DNA of 64,000 nt from Alloalcanivorax gelatiniphagus (GTDB taxonomy: Bacteria; Pseudomonadota; Gammaproteobacteria; Pseudomonadales; Alcanivoracaceae): positions 62,001 through 126,000 of the forward strand of contig NZ_VCQT01000036.1 of NCBI RefSeq assembly GCF_005938655.1, given 5' to 3'. Below, piece after piece: positions 11,277 through 25,005 of the stretch (within the stretch, counting starts at the first letter, position 1; the number at the start of each line of letters is the position of its first letter). Under the pieces are notes generated by a model. That model was given only the letters and a program-made list of their open reading frames with translations. It ran no database searches and was not told the DNA's origin. The position numbers were made by a program, and so were the translations under genes.

Positions 11277-11485
11277 ACACGGCGTCTCATGGTTGCGTTG
11301 TCATTGCTTTGTCGATAAGAAGGTTTGTTACTACCAACGAAAGCGCCGAGTCTAACACCGGCGTACTACCTTTACTCCATCATCGGCCGCCCGGCGGGCC
11401 TGAAAACCGGACCAACGGCCCAGCCTTGAGCGCATGCTGGGCCTATCATGGCCGCGAAAGCCCTAAGACGTTCGGATTAGACAAT

Positions 11486-17706: not shown

Positions 17707-19164
17707 TCAGAGCCAGGTTTCCGCGTACTCCGCCAGCAACGACCTGGGCACTCCCATCAATTGCACCGAGCCGCCGTGTTCGAAGCCTTTGAAGCGTTCG
17801 GTCATGTAGGTGAGGCCGGAGCTGATCGGCGACAGGTAGGGGGTATCGATCTGCGCCAGGTTGCCGAGGCACACCACCTTGGAGCCCTCCCCGGCCCGGG
17901 TGATGATCGCCTTCATCTGGTGGGGGGTCAGGTTCTGGCTTTCGTCGATCAGGATCAGGGATTTCTGGAAGCTGCGGCCACGGATGTAGTTGAGCGCCTT
18001 GAACTGAATGTTGGCGCGCTCCTTGACGTACTGAATGCTGCCCTGGGGATTCTCGTCGTTGAGGTGCAGCGCCTCGATGTTGTCGTTGATGGCGCCCAGC
18101 CAGGGGTCCATCTTTTCTTCCTCGGTGCCCGGCAGAAAGCCGTGCTCCTCGGCCAGCGGCGGCGTGGAGCGGGTGGCGATAATCTTGTTGAAGCGGCGCT
18201 GCTCCACGGTCATTTCGATGGCCGCCGCCAGGGCCAGGATTGTTTTGCCGGAGCCGGCGGCGCCGGTCAGGGTGACCAGGTGGATGTCCGGGTCGAGCAG
18301 TAAGTGCAGCGCCACCGCCTGCTGGATGTTCATCGGCTTGAGGCCCCAGGCCTCCTGATCCATCAGCGTTTCGGCCTTATGGTGCCGCAGGGTCACCACG
18401 CCGTCGCGCACGCTGACGATGCGGCCCACGAAGCCCTGCTCGTCGAGAATGAATTGGTTGGGATAGACCTCTTCGCCGAGGATGTCCCCTACCACCAGGC
18501 CGTGGGGCAGATGGTGCAGGGTTTCCGCGCCTTCCTGCACGGTGTCCACCTCGGTGACCTTGTCCCAGAACGAGCCCGGCACTTCGAAGAAACCCCGGGT
18601 CAGTTGCTTGATGTCGGAGACCAGCTGGTCGTTCTGGTAGTCCTCCGCGTCGATGCCACAGGCGCGCGCCTTGAGGCGCATGTTGATGTCCTTGGTGACC
18701 AGCACGTAGCGGCTGTCCGGGTCGGCCATCTTCATGGCCATCACGTCATTGATGATGCGGTTGTCGTTGACGTGCTCCGGTAGCCCGGTGCCGCCGGCGC
18801 CGCCGCGCGGCATCAGCACCGTGAGGGTGCCCTGGTCGGTGCGGCCCCGGTTGATGGGGATACCGGCTTCCACCTCCGCCGGGCTGGCCTGGCCCAGCAC
18901 CCGGTCGATCTGGCGGATCGCCGCCCGGCAGTCCGAGGCGGTGTGGGATTTACCGGTTTTCAGACGGTCCAGTTCCTCCAGAACGGTCATCGGAATCGCC
19001 ACCCGGTGCTCCTCGAAGTTGAGCAGCGAGTTGGGATCATGGATCAACACATTGGTATCAAGAACGTAGGTTTTCGGCGTGGCGTCGGGTTGGCCGTGGC
19101 GGGCGTTGGACGGTTGGGATTTGGCTGCGGAGACGGAATGCAAAGTGGCCGCGCGCTCTTCCAT
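17707..19164 (-). CDS. PIN domain plus PhoH-type ATPase protein
   Basis: 485 residues. An N-terminal PIN ribonuclease domain (about residues 31-170) starts with TYVLDTNVLIHDPNSLL and has the acidic residues expected in this fold. The C-terminal PhoH ATPase domain has Walker A GAAGSGKT, Walker B LILIDESQNL and VVCLGNLAQIDTPYL. This PIN-PhoH architecture (YlaK/PhoH2 type) is linked to RNA unwinding and cleavage in other bacteria; a similar role here is inference. It is a different gene from the ybeZ-type PhoH at 35815. A REP pair lies just beyond its stop. Confidence 0.9.
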   Translation of the reverse strand: MEERAATLHSVSAAKSQPSNARHGQPDATPKTYVLDTNVLIHDPNSLLNFEEHRVAIPMTVLEELDRLKTGKSHTASDCRAAIRQIDRVLGQASPAEVEAGIPINRGRTDQGTLTVLMPRGGAGGTGLPEHVNDNRIINDVMAMKMADPDSRYVLVTKDINMRLKARACGIDAEDYQNDQLVSDIKQLTRGFFEVPGSFWDKVTEVDTVQEGAETLHHLPHGLVVGDILGEEVYPNQFILDEQGFVGRIVSVRDGVVTLRHHKAETLMDQEAWGLKPMNIQQAVALHLLLDPDIHLVTLTGAAGSGKTILALAAAIEMTVEQRRFNKIIATRSTPPLAEEHGFLPGTEEEKMDPWLGAINDNIEALHLNDENPQGSIQYVKERANIQFKALNYIRGRSFQKSLILIDESQNLTPHQMKAIITRAGEGSKVVCLGNLAQIDTPYLSPISSGLTYMTERFKGFEHGGSVQLMGVPRSLLAEYAETWL

Positions 19165-19413: not shown

Positions 19414-19917
19414 ATGTCCCAGGAACCGACCGGCCAGCGGGAGCCAACCCGCGAGCCCGCACCGGAACACCCCGAGGTACGCATGCCGCCGCCGCTGCTG
19501 CACCTGGGCGGTCTGCTGATCGGCCATGGCCTGGACCAGGCCCTGGGCTGGACCCTGCCGGACTTCCCCGGCCGCCAGACCCTGGCCACGGTGCTGGCGG
19601 TGACCGGCGCGATTCTGGTGGTGGCGGCGCTGCTGCAGCTGGCCCGCCACCGCACCACGGTGATGCCGCACCGGGCCGCCCGGGTGCTGGTCACCGGTGG
19701 CGTGTTCCGGCTGAGCCGCAATCCGATCTATCTGTCGTTCGCGCTGTTGCATCTGGCCTGCGCCCTGAGCCTGGCCAGCCCAGGCATGCTGTTGATGCTG
19801 CTGGCGGTATTGTGGGTCATGCAAACTCACGTGATCGCCGCGGAAGAAGCGTTTCATGCCCGGCGCTTCGGGGATCAGTGGCTGGACTATCGCCGGCGGG
19901 TACGACGCTGGCTGTGA
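19414..19917 (+). CDS. Isoprenylcysteine carboxyl methyltransferase-like membrane protein
   Basis: 167 residues with about four helices. The RLSRNPIYLSFALLHLA motif and the following helix, then EEAFHARRFGDQWLDYRRRVRRWL, match the PEMT/ICMT fold, which binds S-adenosylmethionine at a membrane. Bacterial members rarely have known substrates. Its last 101 bp overlap the 3' end of the convergent cysteine hydrolase on the other strand, in a region where both encoded proteins look normal. Confidence 0.85.
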   Translation: MSQEPTGQREPTREPAPEHPEVRMPPPLLHLGGLLIGHGLDQALGWTLPDFPGRQTLATVLAVTGAILVVAALLQLARHRTTVMPHRAARVLVTGGVFRLSRNPIYLSFALLHLACALSLASPGMLLMLLAVLWVMQTHVIAAEEAFHARRFGDQWLDYRRRVRRWL

Positions 19918-20527
19918 ACCGGCCCCATTGGCCGCCGCTTACCGGAGGTTTCAGATATTCGGGCGCCGCCAGCTCGCCGTCGCACAGCCGCAACCTGGGG
20001 GAATCGAAATCGCCGGGCACGAAACCGGCCACCCGCGCCTGCCGGGGCAGCCAGCCCAGCCGCCGGTAGATCTCCGCCACCAGCTCCGAACAGAACCAGC
20101 CGCGCCGGTCCGGCGGCCGGGTATAGCCGCTCAGCAGGTCCAGGGCATTGCACCAGAGGAAGTTCTTGTAGGGACGGTGCAGCAGGCGCCGCACCAGCCG
20201 CGCCACCAGCCGCTGACGGCGGGCGCACAGCGGCGGGCCGAGACGGCGGCGCACCACGATGACCCCGGGGTAGTCACGCAGTTTGTCGGCCAGGGGCACC
20301 AGCGCCACCCCGTTCACCGGCCGGCCCAGGTGCAGGTCGGCGGATTCGCTGGTGCCCATGGCTTCAAGCACCAGCGGCCGGTCGTCGCCGGGCAGGCGCA
20401 CGATCATGGCGATATGGCTCCAGCGGCTGCGGGTGAACAGCCGGATGGTGGCACTGACCAGACCACGGCCGGCGAACAACAGCAGATCACCGGTTTGCAG
20501 GGACGAAACGAGCGAAGCAGAGGTCAC
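19817..20527 (-). CDS. YiiX/YaeF-type NlpC/P60-like cysteine hydrolase
   Basis: 236 residues. Permuted NlpC/P60 (YaeF/YiiX) pattern: LQTGDLLLFAGRGL at the start, active-site His in SRWSHIAMIV, YKNFLWCNALDLLSGY, then catalytic Cys in RGWFCSELVAEIYRRLG. These enzymes act on amide or ester bonds of peptides or lipids; the substrate is unknown. I chose the GTG at 20527 because the longer frame to 20626 would run through a row of Pho-box half-sites and adds an Arg/Cys-rich non-domain segment. The 3' end overlaps the convergent ICMT-like gene by 101 bp. Confidence 0.75.
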   Translation of the reverse strand: MTSASLVSSLQTGDLLLFAGRGLVSATIRLFTRSRWSHIAMIVRLPGDDRPLVLEAMGTSESADLHLGRPVNGVALVPLADKLRDYPGVIVVRRRLGPPLCARRQRLVARLVRRLLHRPYKNFLWCNALDLLSGYTRPPDRRGWFCSELVAEIYRRLGWLPRQARVAGFVPGDFDSPRLRLCDGELAAPEYLKPPVSGGQWGRFTASVVPAGDSPATDPRSAGHETLLPRRSREFA

Positions 20528-20574
20528 GACGATACCCACCGAAGAGCCGGGACTCGTCTGGCAGACTGGCCGGC

Positions 20575-20618
20575 GGCGGTGACAGCGCCCTGACAGTTTG
20601 GTCACGCTTGCATGACAG
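20575..20618 (-). promoter_or_regulatory. Tandem Pho boxes facing the YiiX-like gene
   Basis: Read on the minus strand, four half-sites are spaced exactly 11 bp apart: CTGTCAT (20618-20612), GCGTGAC (20607-20601), CTGTCAG (20596-20590) and CTGTCAC (20585-20579). This is the layout of PhoB-binding direct repeats (7-bp half-sites with 4-bp AT/GC spacers). It ends about 50 bp before the chosen GTG start. PhoB control is inferred from the match to the known consensus. Confidence 0.7.
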
Positions 20619-20635
20619 GCCCGCACCGGGAACCA

Positions 20636-20669
20636 CTGTCATAAAACCGTGATCCCGCCGTGCCAGTAT
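20636..20669 (+). promoter_or_regulatory. Pho box and -10 facing the M14 peptidase gene
   Basis: On the plus strand CTGTCAT (20636-20642), AAAA, CCGTGAT (20647-20653) and a weaker CCGTGCC (20658-20664) follow an 11-bp period. A possible -10 CAGTAT lies at 20664-20669. If transcription starts near 20676, the translation start must be one of the later ATGs. Weaker than the opposite array. Confidence 0.5.
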
Positions 20670-20694
20670 GGTGGCAACGATGCCGGTTGCCGCC

Positions 20695-21735
20695 ATGCAA
20701 GAACGCCTTTATCTACTGCAACGACACCTTCCCGAATTGCTGCACCTGGACAGTTTGATCCGGCTTGGCGAACGCCATCTCCGGGTCAGCGACGTGCTTA
20801 CCGTGCACCAGGACCAGGTGCCGTTACCGGTGCGCGTGATCGAGATGGGCAGCCAGTCGCCGGGGGCGCCGGTGATCGGTTTCTTCGGTGGCGTGCACGG
20901 GGTGGAACGGATCGGTACCCAGGTGATCCTGTCGCTGCTGCACAGCCTGATTCACCGGCTGCAATGGGACGATCAGATGCACCGGCGGCTGGAGAGCGTG
21001 CGCCTGGTGTTCATGCCCATGGTCAACCCGGGCGGCATCTGGCGGCGCACCCGCAGCAACCCCAACGGCGTGGACCTGATGCGCAATGCCCCGGTGGACG
21101 CCGATGGCCAGGTATCGTTTCTGGTCGGCGGCCAGCGCCTGAGCCGGCGGCTGCCCTGGTACCGGGGCCGGGCCGGCGCGCCCATGGAGGCGGAGGCCCA
21201 GGCGCTGATCCAGGTGGTGCGCGAGCGGCTGCTCAATGCGCCGGTTTCCCTGAGCCTGGACTGCCACAGCGGCTTCGGCCGCCGCGACCGGATCTGGTGC
21301 TGCTATGCGCGCACCCACAAACCCATTGAGCATCTCGCCGAGGTGTTCCGGCTCAAGCAGCTGTTGGAAAACACCTACCCGCACCATCATCCCTACCTGA
21401 TCGAACCCCAGTCGCTGAATTACACCACCCACGGCGACCTCTGGGATTATCTGTACGACCAGGCCCTGGAGCAGCACCCGGAGCGCACCTTCCTGCCGCT
21501 CACCCTGGAAATGGGGTCCTGGCTGTGGGTGCGTAAAAACCCCCGCCAGATGCTGGATTTCTTCGGTTACTTCAACCCGATCATCGGCCACCGCCACGAC
21601 CGGGTATTACGCCAGCATCTGCCGCTGTGTGATTTTCTGATCGCCGCCACCGCCAACGCCGGCAACTGGCTGCCCACCGGCGAGCGCCGCCGCGCCCTGG
21701 CGCGGGACGCGGTCCGGCATTGGTTCGAAGAATAA
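20695..21735 (+). CDS. M14-family zinc carboxypeptidase-like protein
   Basis: 346 residues. The zinc site of M14 peptidases is visible: FFGGVHGVERIG (HxxE ligands), LDCHSGFGRRD (third His) and LTLEMGSWLW with the probable catalytic Glu. MVNPGGIWRRTRSNPNGVDLMRN is also family-typical. No signal peptide is seen. The start is uncertain between 20668, 20680 and 20695; 20695 was taken because a Pho box and -10 precede it. Divergent from the YiiX-like hydrolase, with Pho-box motifs between, so both may respond to phosphate. Possible substrates are peptides or amidated compounds. Confidence 0.8.
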   Translation: MQERLYLLQRHLPELLHLDSLIRLGERHLRVSDVLTVHQDQVPLPVRVIEMGSQSPGAPVIGFFGGVHGVERIGTQVILSLLHSLIHRLQWDDQMHRRLESVRLVFMPMVNPGGIWRRTRSNPNGVDLMRNAPVDADGQVSFLVGGQRLSRRLPWYRGRAGAPMEAEAQALIQVVRERLLNAPVSLSLDCHSGFGRRDRIWCCYARTHKPIEHLAEVFRLKQLLENTYPHHHPYLIEPQSLNYTTHGDLWDYLYDQALEQHPERTFLPLTLEMGSWLWVRKNPRQMLDFFGYFNPIIGHRHDRVLRQHLPLCDFLIAATANAGNWLPTGERRRALARDAVRHWFEE

Positions 21736-21743
21736 CCTCCCTA

Positions 21744-21831
21744 CCCGCTGGTGGCTTTGCTCAATCCGGCTGGTGGCTTGCCTCAATCCCGCTGGTGGCC
21801 CTCCATAATCCCGCTGGTGGCCCTCCTCTTG
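21744..21831 (+). repeat. Four 22-bp tandem repeats
   Basis: Units at 21744-21765, 21766-21787, 21788-21809 and 21810-21831, each beginning CC(C/G)GCTGGTGGC. The first two share the end CTCAAT, the last two share GGCCCTCC. They begin 8 bp after the M14 stop and end 38 bp before the lipoprotein start. Confidence 0.9.
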
Positions 21832-23454: not shown

Positions 23455-23901
23455 TCACGGGGTGCTGTGACGTACCTGAAAGTCCCCGCACACATCGTCG
23501 TGATTGCTGAACGTCAGGCACACCTCCACCCGGTCGCCGGCGCGCGGCACATCGGTGAGCCCGGTCAATTGCAGAAAGCGCCGGCCGGGCCGGAAACGCA
23601 GCCGGTCGCCGGGGTCCAGCCGCACCGAATCCAACGCCCGATCCCGGCGCCGGCCATCCTTGCCGGTGCGCGTTTCCAACAGCGCGGCGCCAGTGGCGGA
23701 ACGGGCCTCGGCGCCTTCCAGGCGTACCGAGCGGTTGCCGTTGTTGCGCAGTTCGAAATAGCCGGCCATGGCCGGGGCCACCGGCGGCACGGCGCGCAGC
23801 CAGGCGTTTTCAAGAATGACATCGTCGGAGCTGGCGCCACTGGCCAACGCCAGGCCGGCGGCGGCGAGCACGGCGCGCCAGGCGCGCGGAGCAAACAGCA
23901 T
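23455..23901 (-). CDS. PCu(A)C-family protein lacking the copper ligands
   Basis: 148 residues. Signal peptide (about 1-25), then the PCu(A)C fold: ENAWLRAVPPVAPAMAGYF, VRLEGAE and VEVCLTF. In functional relatives, His, Met, His and Met bind copper. Aligned with the neighbour at 24003, those positions are Leu75, Asp87, Phe109 and Gln111, so all four ligands are gone. It has an Arg-rich central loop instead. It lies 101 bp after the canonical copy on the same strand and looks like a tandem duplicate that has lost copper binding but kept the reading frame. Confidence 0.85.
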   Translation of the reverse strand: MLFAPRAWRAVLAAAGLALASGASSDDVILENAWLRAVPPVAPAMAGYFELRNNGNRSVRLEGAEARSATGAALLETRTGKDGRRRDRALDSVRLDPGDRLRFRPGRRFLQLTGLTDVPRAGDRVEVCLTFSNHDDVCGDFQVRHSTP

Positions 23902-24002
23902 GGTCCCTCTCCCTGATCAGTCGGAGTGTGTAGGAGTGGGGTCCAGGCTAACAGAAAGGGCCGCGCCCGCGGTCAACCCTGCGGGCGCGGCGGAGGGGGC
24001 GC

Positions 24003-24446
24003 TCAGGGCGCTTCGCGGCGCACCGGGAAGTCGCCGCAGAGGTCTTCGCGGTCACGGAAAGTGAGGCAGATTTCCACGCTTTCGCCGGCTTCCGGAATGG
24101 TGTCCACCTTCATCAGCATCAGGTGCTTGCCACCGGGGGCGAAGGTGGCCTCGTCACCGGGCTCCAGGGTGATGCCACTGAGATGCACCATGCGCGCCTG
24201 GCCGTCATCGGTGGTTTCGGTGTCGTGCAGCATGGCCATGCCGGCGATGTCGGTTTTGGCGCCGATGAGTTCCACCGCCTGGTCGCCATCGTTGCGCAGG
24301 GTGAAGTAGCCGGCCATGGTCGGCGACACCGGCGGCACGGCGCGCAGCCAGGCGTCTTCCAGTACCAGATCGTCGGCGGCGGCGGCGCCGGCCAGGGCCA
24401 GCAGCGCCGCGCCGGTGAGGGCGTTAAAGAAGGCTTTGTACATCAT
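24003..24446 (-). CDS. Periplasmic copper chaperone PCu(A)C
   Basis: 147 residues. Signal peptide (about 1-24) then the PCu(A)C domain. The copper motif is intact: His74, Met86, His108 and Met110, giving the H-X11-M-X21-H-X-M spacing. PCu(A)C delivers Cu(I) to the CuA or CuB sites of cytochrome oxidases together with Sco proteins, and the Sco gene upstream overlaps it by 23 bp. The start is ATG at 24446, within the Sco 3' end. Confidence 0.92.
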   Translation of the reverse strand: MMYKAFFNALTGAALLALAGAAAADDLVLEDAWLRAVPPVSPTMAGYFTLRNDGDQAVELIGAKTDIAGMAMLHDTETTDDGQARMVHLSGITLEPGDEATFAPGGKHLMLMKVDTIPEAGESVEICLTFRDREDLCGDFPVRREAP

Positions 24447-25005
24447 GGATCACCTCGTCGATGTCGAAGTCCGACGGGTACAGCTTGCGCACCCGCCCCT
24501 GCTGGTCCAGCAGGTAAACGTAGTCACTGTGGGTAAAGTCGTAGCCCGAGCCGTCGTCGGCGGATTGCAGATAGACCACGCCATACTGCTCCGCCACCGC
24601 GCGGATTTGCTCCTCGTCGCCGGTCAGGCCGATCACATTGGCCTTGAACCAGGGCACGTACTCGCTGAGGTGCTCGGGGGTATCCCGTCGCGGGTCGAAG
24701 GTAATGAACAGGGGCTGCACCCGCTCCGCGTCACCGGCCTCCTTCAGGTTGCGGTACACCTGGGAGACCCGGGCCAGGGTCGCCGGGCAAATGTCCGGGC
24801 AATGGGTATAGCCGAAGAACATCAGCACCACACGGCCGCGCTGGTCGGCCAGTTGGAACGGCTCGCCACGGTGGTCGGTGAGGGTGAAATCCCCGCCCAG
24901 GCGGGTGTTCACCGGTAATTCCGGCGGCGGCTCGGCGCAGGCGGCCAGGGCCAGTAACAGGCCCGGCAGGCCCAGCCGGCCGGCCAGGGCGGGCAGCAAA
25001 GTCAT
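24424..25005 (-). CDS. Sco1/SenC family copper chaperone
   Basis: 193 residues. N-terminal hydrophobic leader ending in LALAAC, a possible lipobox, then a thioredoxin-like Sco domain with the copper-binding FGYTHCPDICPATL (two Cys) and the distal His in YDFTHSDYVYLLD. Helps build the CuA site of cytochrome c oxidase. It is the first gene of a minus-strand unit with two PCu(A)C genes; the oxidase-assembly genes ctaA and cyoE are 21 kb away, so copper delivery is encoded apart from heme synthesis. Confidence 0.92.
   Translation of the reverse strand: MTLLPALAGRLGLPGLLLALAACAEPPPELPVNTRLGGDFTLTDHRGEPFQLADQRGRVVLMFFGYTHCPDICPATLARVSQVYRNLKEAGDAERVQPLFITFDPRRDTPEHLSEYVPWFKANVIGLTGDEEQIRAVAEQYGVVYLQSADDGSGYDFTHSDYVYLLDQQGRVRKLYPSDFDIDEVIHDVQSLL

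Follow-up and report, generated by a model that had tools for sequence, protein, structure and literature searches.

In a 64,000-nt stretch of the Alloalcanivorax gelatiniphagus genome (the window; part of contig 30 of a 4.2-Mb genome), one intergenic region separates two divergent genes, encoding a C92 (YaeF/YiiX-type) permuted papain-like hydrolase and an M14-family zinc peptidase-like protein. Motif, half-site register, −10 geometry, conservation and genome-wide rank together point to two divergent PhoB-activated promoters in this region, one for each gene, a reading to which we assign a probability of about 0.9. Phosphate starvation probably induces both genes throughout the Alcanivoracaceae, and we class them as predicted additions to the Pho regulon whose promoters have the usual PhoB anatomy.

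Tandem Pho boxes between two divergent genes

PhoB sites are defined, in excerpts of PMC4415409, as 7-bp half-sites in 11-bp steps. Facing the C92 gene on the minus strand, half-sites CTGTCAT, GCGTGAC, CTGTCAG and CTGTCAC, separated by gcaa, caaa and ggcg, run from 20618 to 20579 in steps of exactly 11 nt. Facing the M14 gene, an 18-bp plus-strand box reads CTGTCAT-aaaa-CCGTGAT. The original prediction had named these four minus-strand half-sites and the plus-strand box, and all are found where it placed them.

We scored the sites with a half-site matrix trained on Alcanivoracaceae phoB and pst upstream regions, with the target excluded (59 of 60 regions yielded a site, 39 distinct), against a null of 3 Mb of first-order Markov sequence scanned on both strands (6 Mb). 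The minus-strand array scored 23.5, the top four-site array of the window, compared with a null maximum of 12.7. As a two-site array the plus box scored 11.9, which the null reached 54 times in 6 Mb. The motif of the region is that of the genome's own phoB and pst promoters, and the family-derived matrix fits it. We dropped window-wide consensus counting in favour of this matrix: with up to three mismatches, CTGTCATNNNNCTGTCAT was found twice in the window against 2.98 expected, which is not significant. What makes the sites significant is their tandem arrangement, together with genome-wide rank and conservation. The second-best two-site match of the window (12.5; 11298–11315) lies just upstream of a minus-strand open reading frame (ORF), facing away, and is probably a chance match.

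The genome's PhoB scores over the family cut-off, and a pst-type binding-protein gene is present (a PBP family match, under the TIGR model cut-off). With at most two mismatches, CTGTCATNNNNCTGTCAT occurs genome-wide in ten places in eight regions: the C92/M14 intergenic region (two), ppk1 (two overlapping), phoB, pst, and the genes for a CHAD-domain protein, a DUF2057 lipoprotein, a 5'-nucleotidase-family lipoprotein-like product and a choice-of-anchor I protein. The strict pattern NTGTMAKNNNNNTGTMAY is found in five places, namely the C92/M14 region, phoB, pst, ppk1 and the CHAD gene, and its mirrored control in none, so that the predicted region stands among the strict-pattern places beside the phoB and pst controls.

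Besides these controls, Pho boxes lie upstream of ppk1 (L009; G000:C39:14617), the CHAD-domain gene (L013; C32:194584), the DUF2057 lipoprotein gene (L016; C39:108176), the 5'-nucleotidase-family gene (L010; C27:68615) and the choice-of-anchor I gene (L014; C33:2379). Ten nt downstream of the box stands CACACT for DUF2057 and TAGCCT for the nucleotidase. The scan suggests that the genome's Pho regulon includes polyphosphate functions.

Promoter geometry matches that of control promoters

Across the control promoters, the match to TATAAT peaks exactly 10 nt past the 18-bp box (mean 4.39 of 6), and both target sets score best at this offset too, with 3.14 on the plus side and 2.4 on the minus side, where the runner-up is 2.3 at offset 8. 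Of 30 plus-side −10 hexamers, 28 have A as the second and T as the sixth base (all but L066 and L067), and on the minus side 27 of 28 relatives show these two bases 10 nt past the two-site box (all but L066). Since the −10 offset is that of the controls, each array sits where PhoB would replace the −35 element. We infer that PhoB binds and activates both promoters: tandem protomers would occupy the 7-bp half-sites in 11-bp steps in place of a −35 element and would recruit RNA polymerase to the −10 hexamer 10 nt downstream, one promoter driving the C92 cysteine hydrolase and the other the M14 metallopeptidase-like enzyme.

Both arrays are conserved in the Alcanivoracaceae

Conservation counts rest on the best 80 of 476 loci of M14 relatives, comprising 29 in an Alcanivoracaceae-like group assigned by identity and record names (L039–L067; family loci) and 51 outside it (L068–L118). 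The window's M14 protein shares 91% identity with its counterparts in Alloalcanivorax marinus NMRL4 and in an Alcanivorax metagenome-assembled genome (MAG), and the gene is present in all 35 good-quality family genomes sampled. We tested 150-nt stretches, leaving out L050 on the C92 side, where it has too little flank. In 28/28 family loci the C92 gene is faced by a tandem Pho signal with E ≤ 0.001 (gene-internal control 0/28 at E ≤ 0.01), and a Pho box faces the M14 gene at E ≤ 0.01 in 27/29, so the 11-bp arrays predicted from the window are conserved in relatives on both sides. At E ≤ 0.001 the plus side passes in 10/29 loci only.

The M14-side figure is the result of inspection. An automatic count of 29/29 (control 1/29) was rejected as inflated, since the best match in L044, L045, L046 and L057 was the minus array on the other strand; the lower figure leaves our reading unchanged. 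With their own boxes, L045 (E ~0.008) and L057 (~0.006) pass, and L044 and L046 (both ~0.07) fail. We likewise discarded an apparent absence of the minus array from several Alcanivorax, which came from scanning only 250 nt; a scan of the full intergenic region shows the array. The intergenic region is 394–642 nt long in nine loci (L048, L049, L051, L054, L055, L058, L059, L060 and L065), and both arrays are kept there, although L049 and L060 have low-scoring minus arrays. The first eight of these long stretches contain repeat-like DNA, by eye similar between several Alcanivorax. When the window is aligned with its five closest relatives, 32 of the 42 columns within half-sites show no variation, as against 28 of 107 elsewhere.

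Outside the family, 12 of 51 M14 upstream regions pass p ≤ 0.01, and none of the 51 mirrored controls does; inside it the mirror passes in 6/29 at the same threshold and is a poor control, since mirrored half-sites resemble the motif. Nine of the ten passing outside loci that we inspected have a two-site box over 12. Three of these boxes face M14 (L077, L083 and L113) and six face away, two of the latter with a fitting −10 (L074 and L114). Predicted Pho control does not extend to this M14 group at large, and we keep the claim to the Alcanivoracaceae. In one outside locus, an Undibacterium MAG (L074:1-387), M14 is divergent from a DUF3419 gene, which we take to be BtaA-like, and a strong Pho box faces DUF3419. 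The BtaA family (PF11899) has no match in the window's own genome.

Two conserved hydrolase-type proteins

The naming of the minus-strand gene as YiiX-like is borne out at the level of a permuted papain-like C92/YiiX type. The window protein scores 23.6 bits with Pfam PF05708 (gathering cut-off 27), and a 25-sequence profile finds both 3kw0 (7.1e-13) and YiiX (1.7e-8). Its fold matches the YaeF/YiiX type, and His38, Glu55, Tyr120 and Cys146 are invariant in the 25 sequences, in the permuted His...Cys order. The NCBIfam equivalog cut-offs for YiiX and YaeF are missed (29 of 216 and 28 of 279 bits), with the shorter start likewise. The C-terminal tail, residues 202–236, is modelled with a predicted local distance difference test value below 50.

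The longest minus-strand ORF, from GTG 20626, crosses the array, in line with the original prediction's remark that the array helps to correct this gene's start codon. Relatives' starts support the shorter ORF: in seven with a single possible start within the scanned stretch (L043, L047, L051, L052, L053, L056 and L057) the protein begins 12–16 residues before a conserved T/S-G-D. In the window GTG 20527 lies 11 residues and GTG 20539 15 residues before it, and both fit; we take GTG 20527 as the preferred predicted start, GTG 20539 being also possible.

The plus-strand gene was correctly assigned to M14, with 61.8 bits for PF00246 against a cut-off of 21.6; NCBIfam gave no match for its protein at 0.001. 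H68, E71, H191 and E272 are invariant in 52 sequences, the HxxE...H residues presumably being the zinc ligands and Glu272 the catalytic glutamate of M14 enzymes. Most relatives align from residue 8–10 of the longest M14 ORF, which argues for ATG 20695 rather than 20668. By eye, no signal peptide is visible in either the C92 or the M14 protein; no predictor was run.

An alpha/beta hydrolase gene follows M14 in 45/51 outside loci and, within the DNA examined, in 0/29 family loci. In the Alcanivoracaceae, M14 is paired divergently with C92 in place of this downstream hydrolase, so the partner of M14 differs between lineages. The hydrolase has a 37% relative on another contig, and no Pho box was found in the surrounding 3.7 kb.

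Table 1. Features of the C92/M14 divergent region, in window coordinates
Feature	Position	Strand	Basis
C92 (YaeF/YiiX-type) permuted papain-like hydrolase, 236 aa, preferred GTG start 20527	19817..20527	-	profile, alignment, fold
Candidate −10 hexamer CAGTCT, 10 nt past minus array	20563..20568	-	offset scan, relatives
Four predicted PhoB half-sites in 11-nt steps, facing C92 gene	20579..20618	-	motif, matrix, conservation
Predicted Pho box facing M14 gene	20636..20653	+	motif, matrix, conservation
Candidate −10 hexamer CAGTAT, 10 nt past plus box	20664..20669	+	offset scan, relatives
M14-family zinc peptidase-like protein, 346 aa, ATG start 20695	20695..21735	+	Pfam, invariant residues, alignment

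Around the pair, the C92 gene and a convergent gene for a PEMT/ICMT-family methyltransferase overlap at their 3' ends by ~100 bp (19817–19917); the methyltransferase is present in 25/29 family loci and not in L050, L065, L066 or L067. A PIN-PhoH (PhoH2-like) gene lies two genes away (17707–19164), with no box among the window's top eight matches. Just past the M14 gene is a 22-bp tandem repeat of 3.9 copies (21744–21828). Further on (23455–25005), two similar tandem small genes and a third look PCuAC-like/Sco-like by eye; these names are guesses, with no NCBIfam match over the cut-off.

Alternatives to two proposed PhoB-activated promoters

Several observations weigh against a PhoB-activated promoter on each side. 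Taken alone, the plus box is only a moderate match; its score is 7–10 in many Alcanivorax, and L044 and L046 have a degenerate box (score 1.6, E ~0.07). L065–L067 have strong M14-side boxes with −10 spacing that is irregular or differs between two analyses, and none of the three outside boxes facing M14 has a fitting −10 at 10 nt. The null was a first-order Markov model. No plain sigma-70 promoter was found in 19900–20800, an uninformative result (chance expectation 0.1). The family counts reflect constraint or shared descent within one family and not separate events, because such close sequences are not independent. Finally, the genome holds 14 full-length OmpR/PhoB-type matches beyond PhoB, and a paralogue could share the motif.

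PhoB might control C92 alone, the plus box being minor and M14 expressed otherwise. The stricter threshold, passed by every minus array tested and by about a third of the plus boxes, fits such an arrangement, as do the degenerate boxes of L044 and L046 and the M14 homologues outside the family, which are mostly without a convincing box. We nonetheless find it unlikely, since the plus box passes E ≤ 0.01 in 27 of the 29 loci, is followed at 10 nt by a fitting −10 in nearly all sequences and is kept where the arrays lie far apart. It is less probable still that another OmpR-family regulator with a PhoB-like motif reads the sites in response to a different signal: the 14 further matches supply candidates, but the matrix from phoB and pst promoters fits the region, and matches to the strict pattern are confined to this region and to four genes related to phosphate. 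In a GC-rich intergenic region the resemblance could also be fortuitous, which would agree with the non-significant consensus count of the window; tandem register, genome rank, −10 spacing and conservation contradict this, and we consider it highly improbable. Two divergent PhoB-activated promoters remain the reading that we prefer.

A possible role in lipid remodelling

An OlsB-like acyltransferase gene elsewhere in the genome (G000:C41:33564-34379; PF13444) has tandem half-sites in 11-nt steps with a −10 hexamer, CAGACT, 10 nt past the fourth. The top NCBIfam match of its protein is L-ornithine N-acyltransferase OlsB, at 155 bits and under the cut-off of 350. All 30 such loci examined, from 37 family genomes with a match, have an upstream tandem array (gene-internal control 0/30). 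In excerpts of published work, olsB of Acinetobacter is up-regulated when phosphate is low and carries a putative Pho box, and lyso-aminolipids seem to undergo rapid degradation (both PMC11828411); in a Pseudomonas, the OlsB protein depends on Pho (PMC5082522). YiiX is described, again in excerpts, with a bound fatty acid, a proposed cleavage of fatty acid–amino acid or fatty acid–peptide amide bonds, and an S1 pocket so narrow and hydrophobic that it was judged unsuited to peptides (Xu et al., PMC3142127); excerpts on other permuted relatives link them to acyl transfer or phospholipase activity (PMC7387801, PMC12994826).

Because the C92 fold is linked to acyl or lipoamino-acid substrates and the OlsB-like gene carries the same kind of promoter, we tentatively favour a role of the C92/M14 pair in phosphate-saving lipid remodelling, in which it would hydrolyse acyl bonds either in phospholipids or in the aminolipid products of the OlsB-like enzyme. 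Counting against this, the tie of M14 to lipids consists only of predicted co-regulation and divergent position. Somewhat less probable, to our mind, is a function of both enzymes in recycling peptides of the cell wall, or proteins, under starvation. The carboxypeptidase fold of M14 speaks for it, as does the cleavage of peptidoglycan by canonical NlpC/P60 enzymes (excerpts of PMC7387801), but the S1 pocket of YiiX, from the permuted C92 branch, is the one judged unfit for peptides (excerpts of PMC3142127), and neither protein shows a signal peptide by eye (no predictor run). The alpha/beta hydrolase that follows M14 in most outside loci fits an ester or acyl substrate about equally. A narrower form of the lipid role seems doubtful to us: a PhoB-induced aminolipid editing module, in which C92 would cleave the fatty acid–amino acid amide in (lyso)ornithine-type lipids and M14 would process the product or a related amide. 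If true, this module would be the missing step that removes lyso-aminolipids when the OlsB-like enzyme is induced.

The proposed novelty of the pair as Pho regulon members agrees with our literature searches. In open-licence articles we found nothing linking a Pho box, PhoB or phosphate starvation with M14 or a zinc carboxypeptidase. None of the literature matches listed mentions YiiX, a weak negative given that lower-ranked matches are possible. The main text of an E. coli PhoB regulon paper (PMC10294691) is without yiiX, yaeF or the word peptidase, and that of PMC5082522 contains none of the peptidase terms looked for. Among the matches listed, Alcanivorax papers on the Pho regulon, ornithine lipid or phosphate starvation hold nothing on the pair in title or abstract.

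The prediction would add two conserved, uncharacterised enzymes to the predicted phosphate response of a dominant group of oil degraders in the sea, for which phosphorus is often the limiting nutrient during growth on oil. The YiiX-type enzymes of bacteria, which are poorly understood, would gain a physiological setting through predicted co-regulation with the OlsB-like lipid enzyme, and this opens the idea of a lipid or lipoamino-acid substrate to direct testing.

Comparison with known systems

Measured against the M14 carboxypeptidases CPT and CPB, the M14 protein has 14–21% identity in the listed structural alignments and differs in appearing cytoplasmic by eye and in lacking an NCBIfam match at 0.001. 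The C92 protein resembles YiiX (2if6) and BcPPNE (3kw0) in fold and in His38, Glu55, Tyr120 and Cys146, and departs from YiiX and YaeF in its sub-cut-off Pfam score, its equivalog scores far below the cut-offs and its C-terminal tail modelled at low confidence. With the OlsB-like gene, the C92/M14 region shares the 11-nt tandem arrays and the −10 register; the former has a single promoter and an acyltransferase target. PhoB-dependent pst and phoB promoters have the same half-site spacing and the same −10 at 10 nt. The C92/M14 region differs from them in its two predicted divergent promoters from one region, and its C92 array in having four half-sites, the second of them weak.
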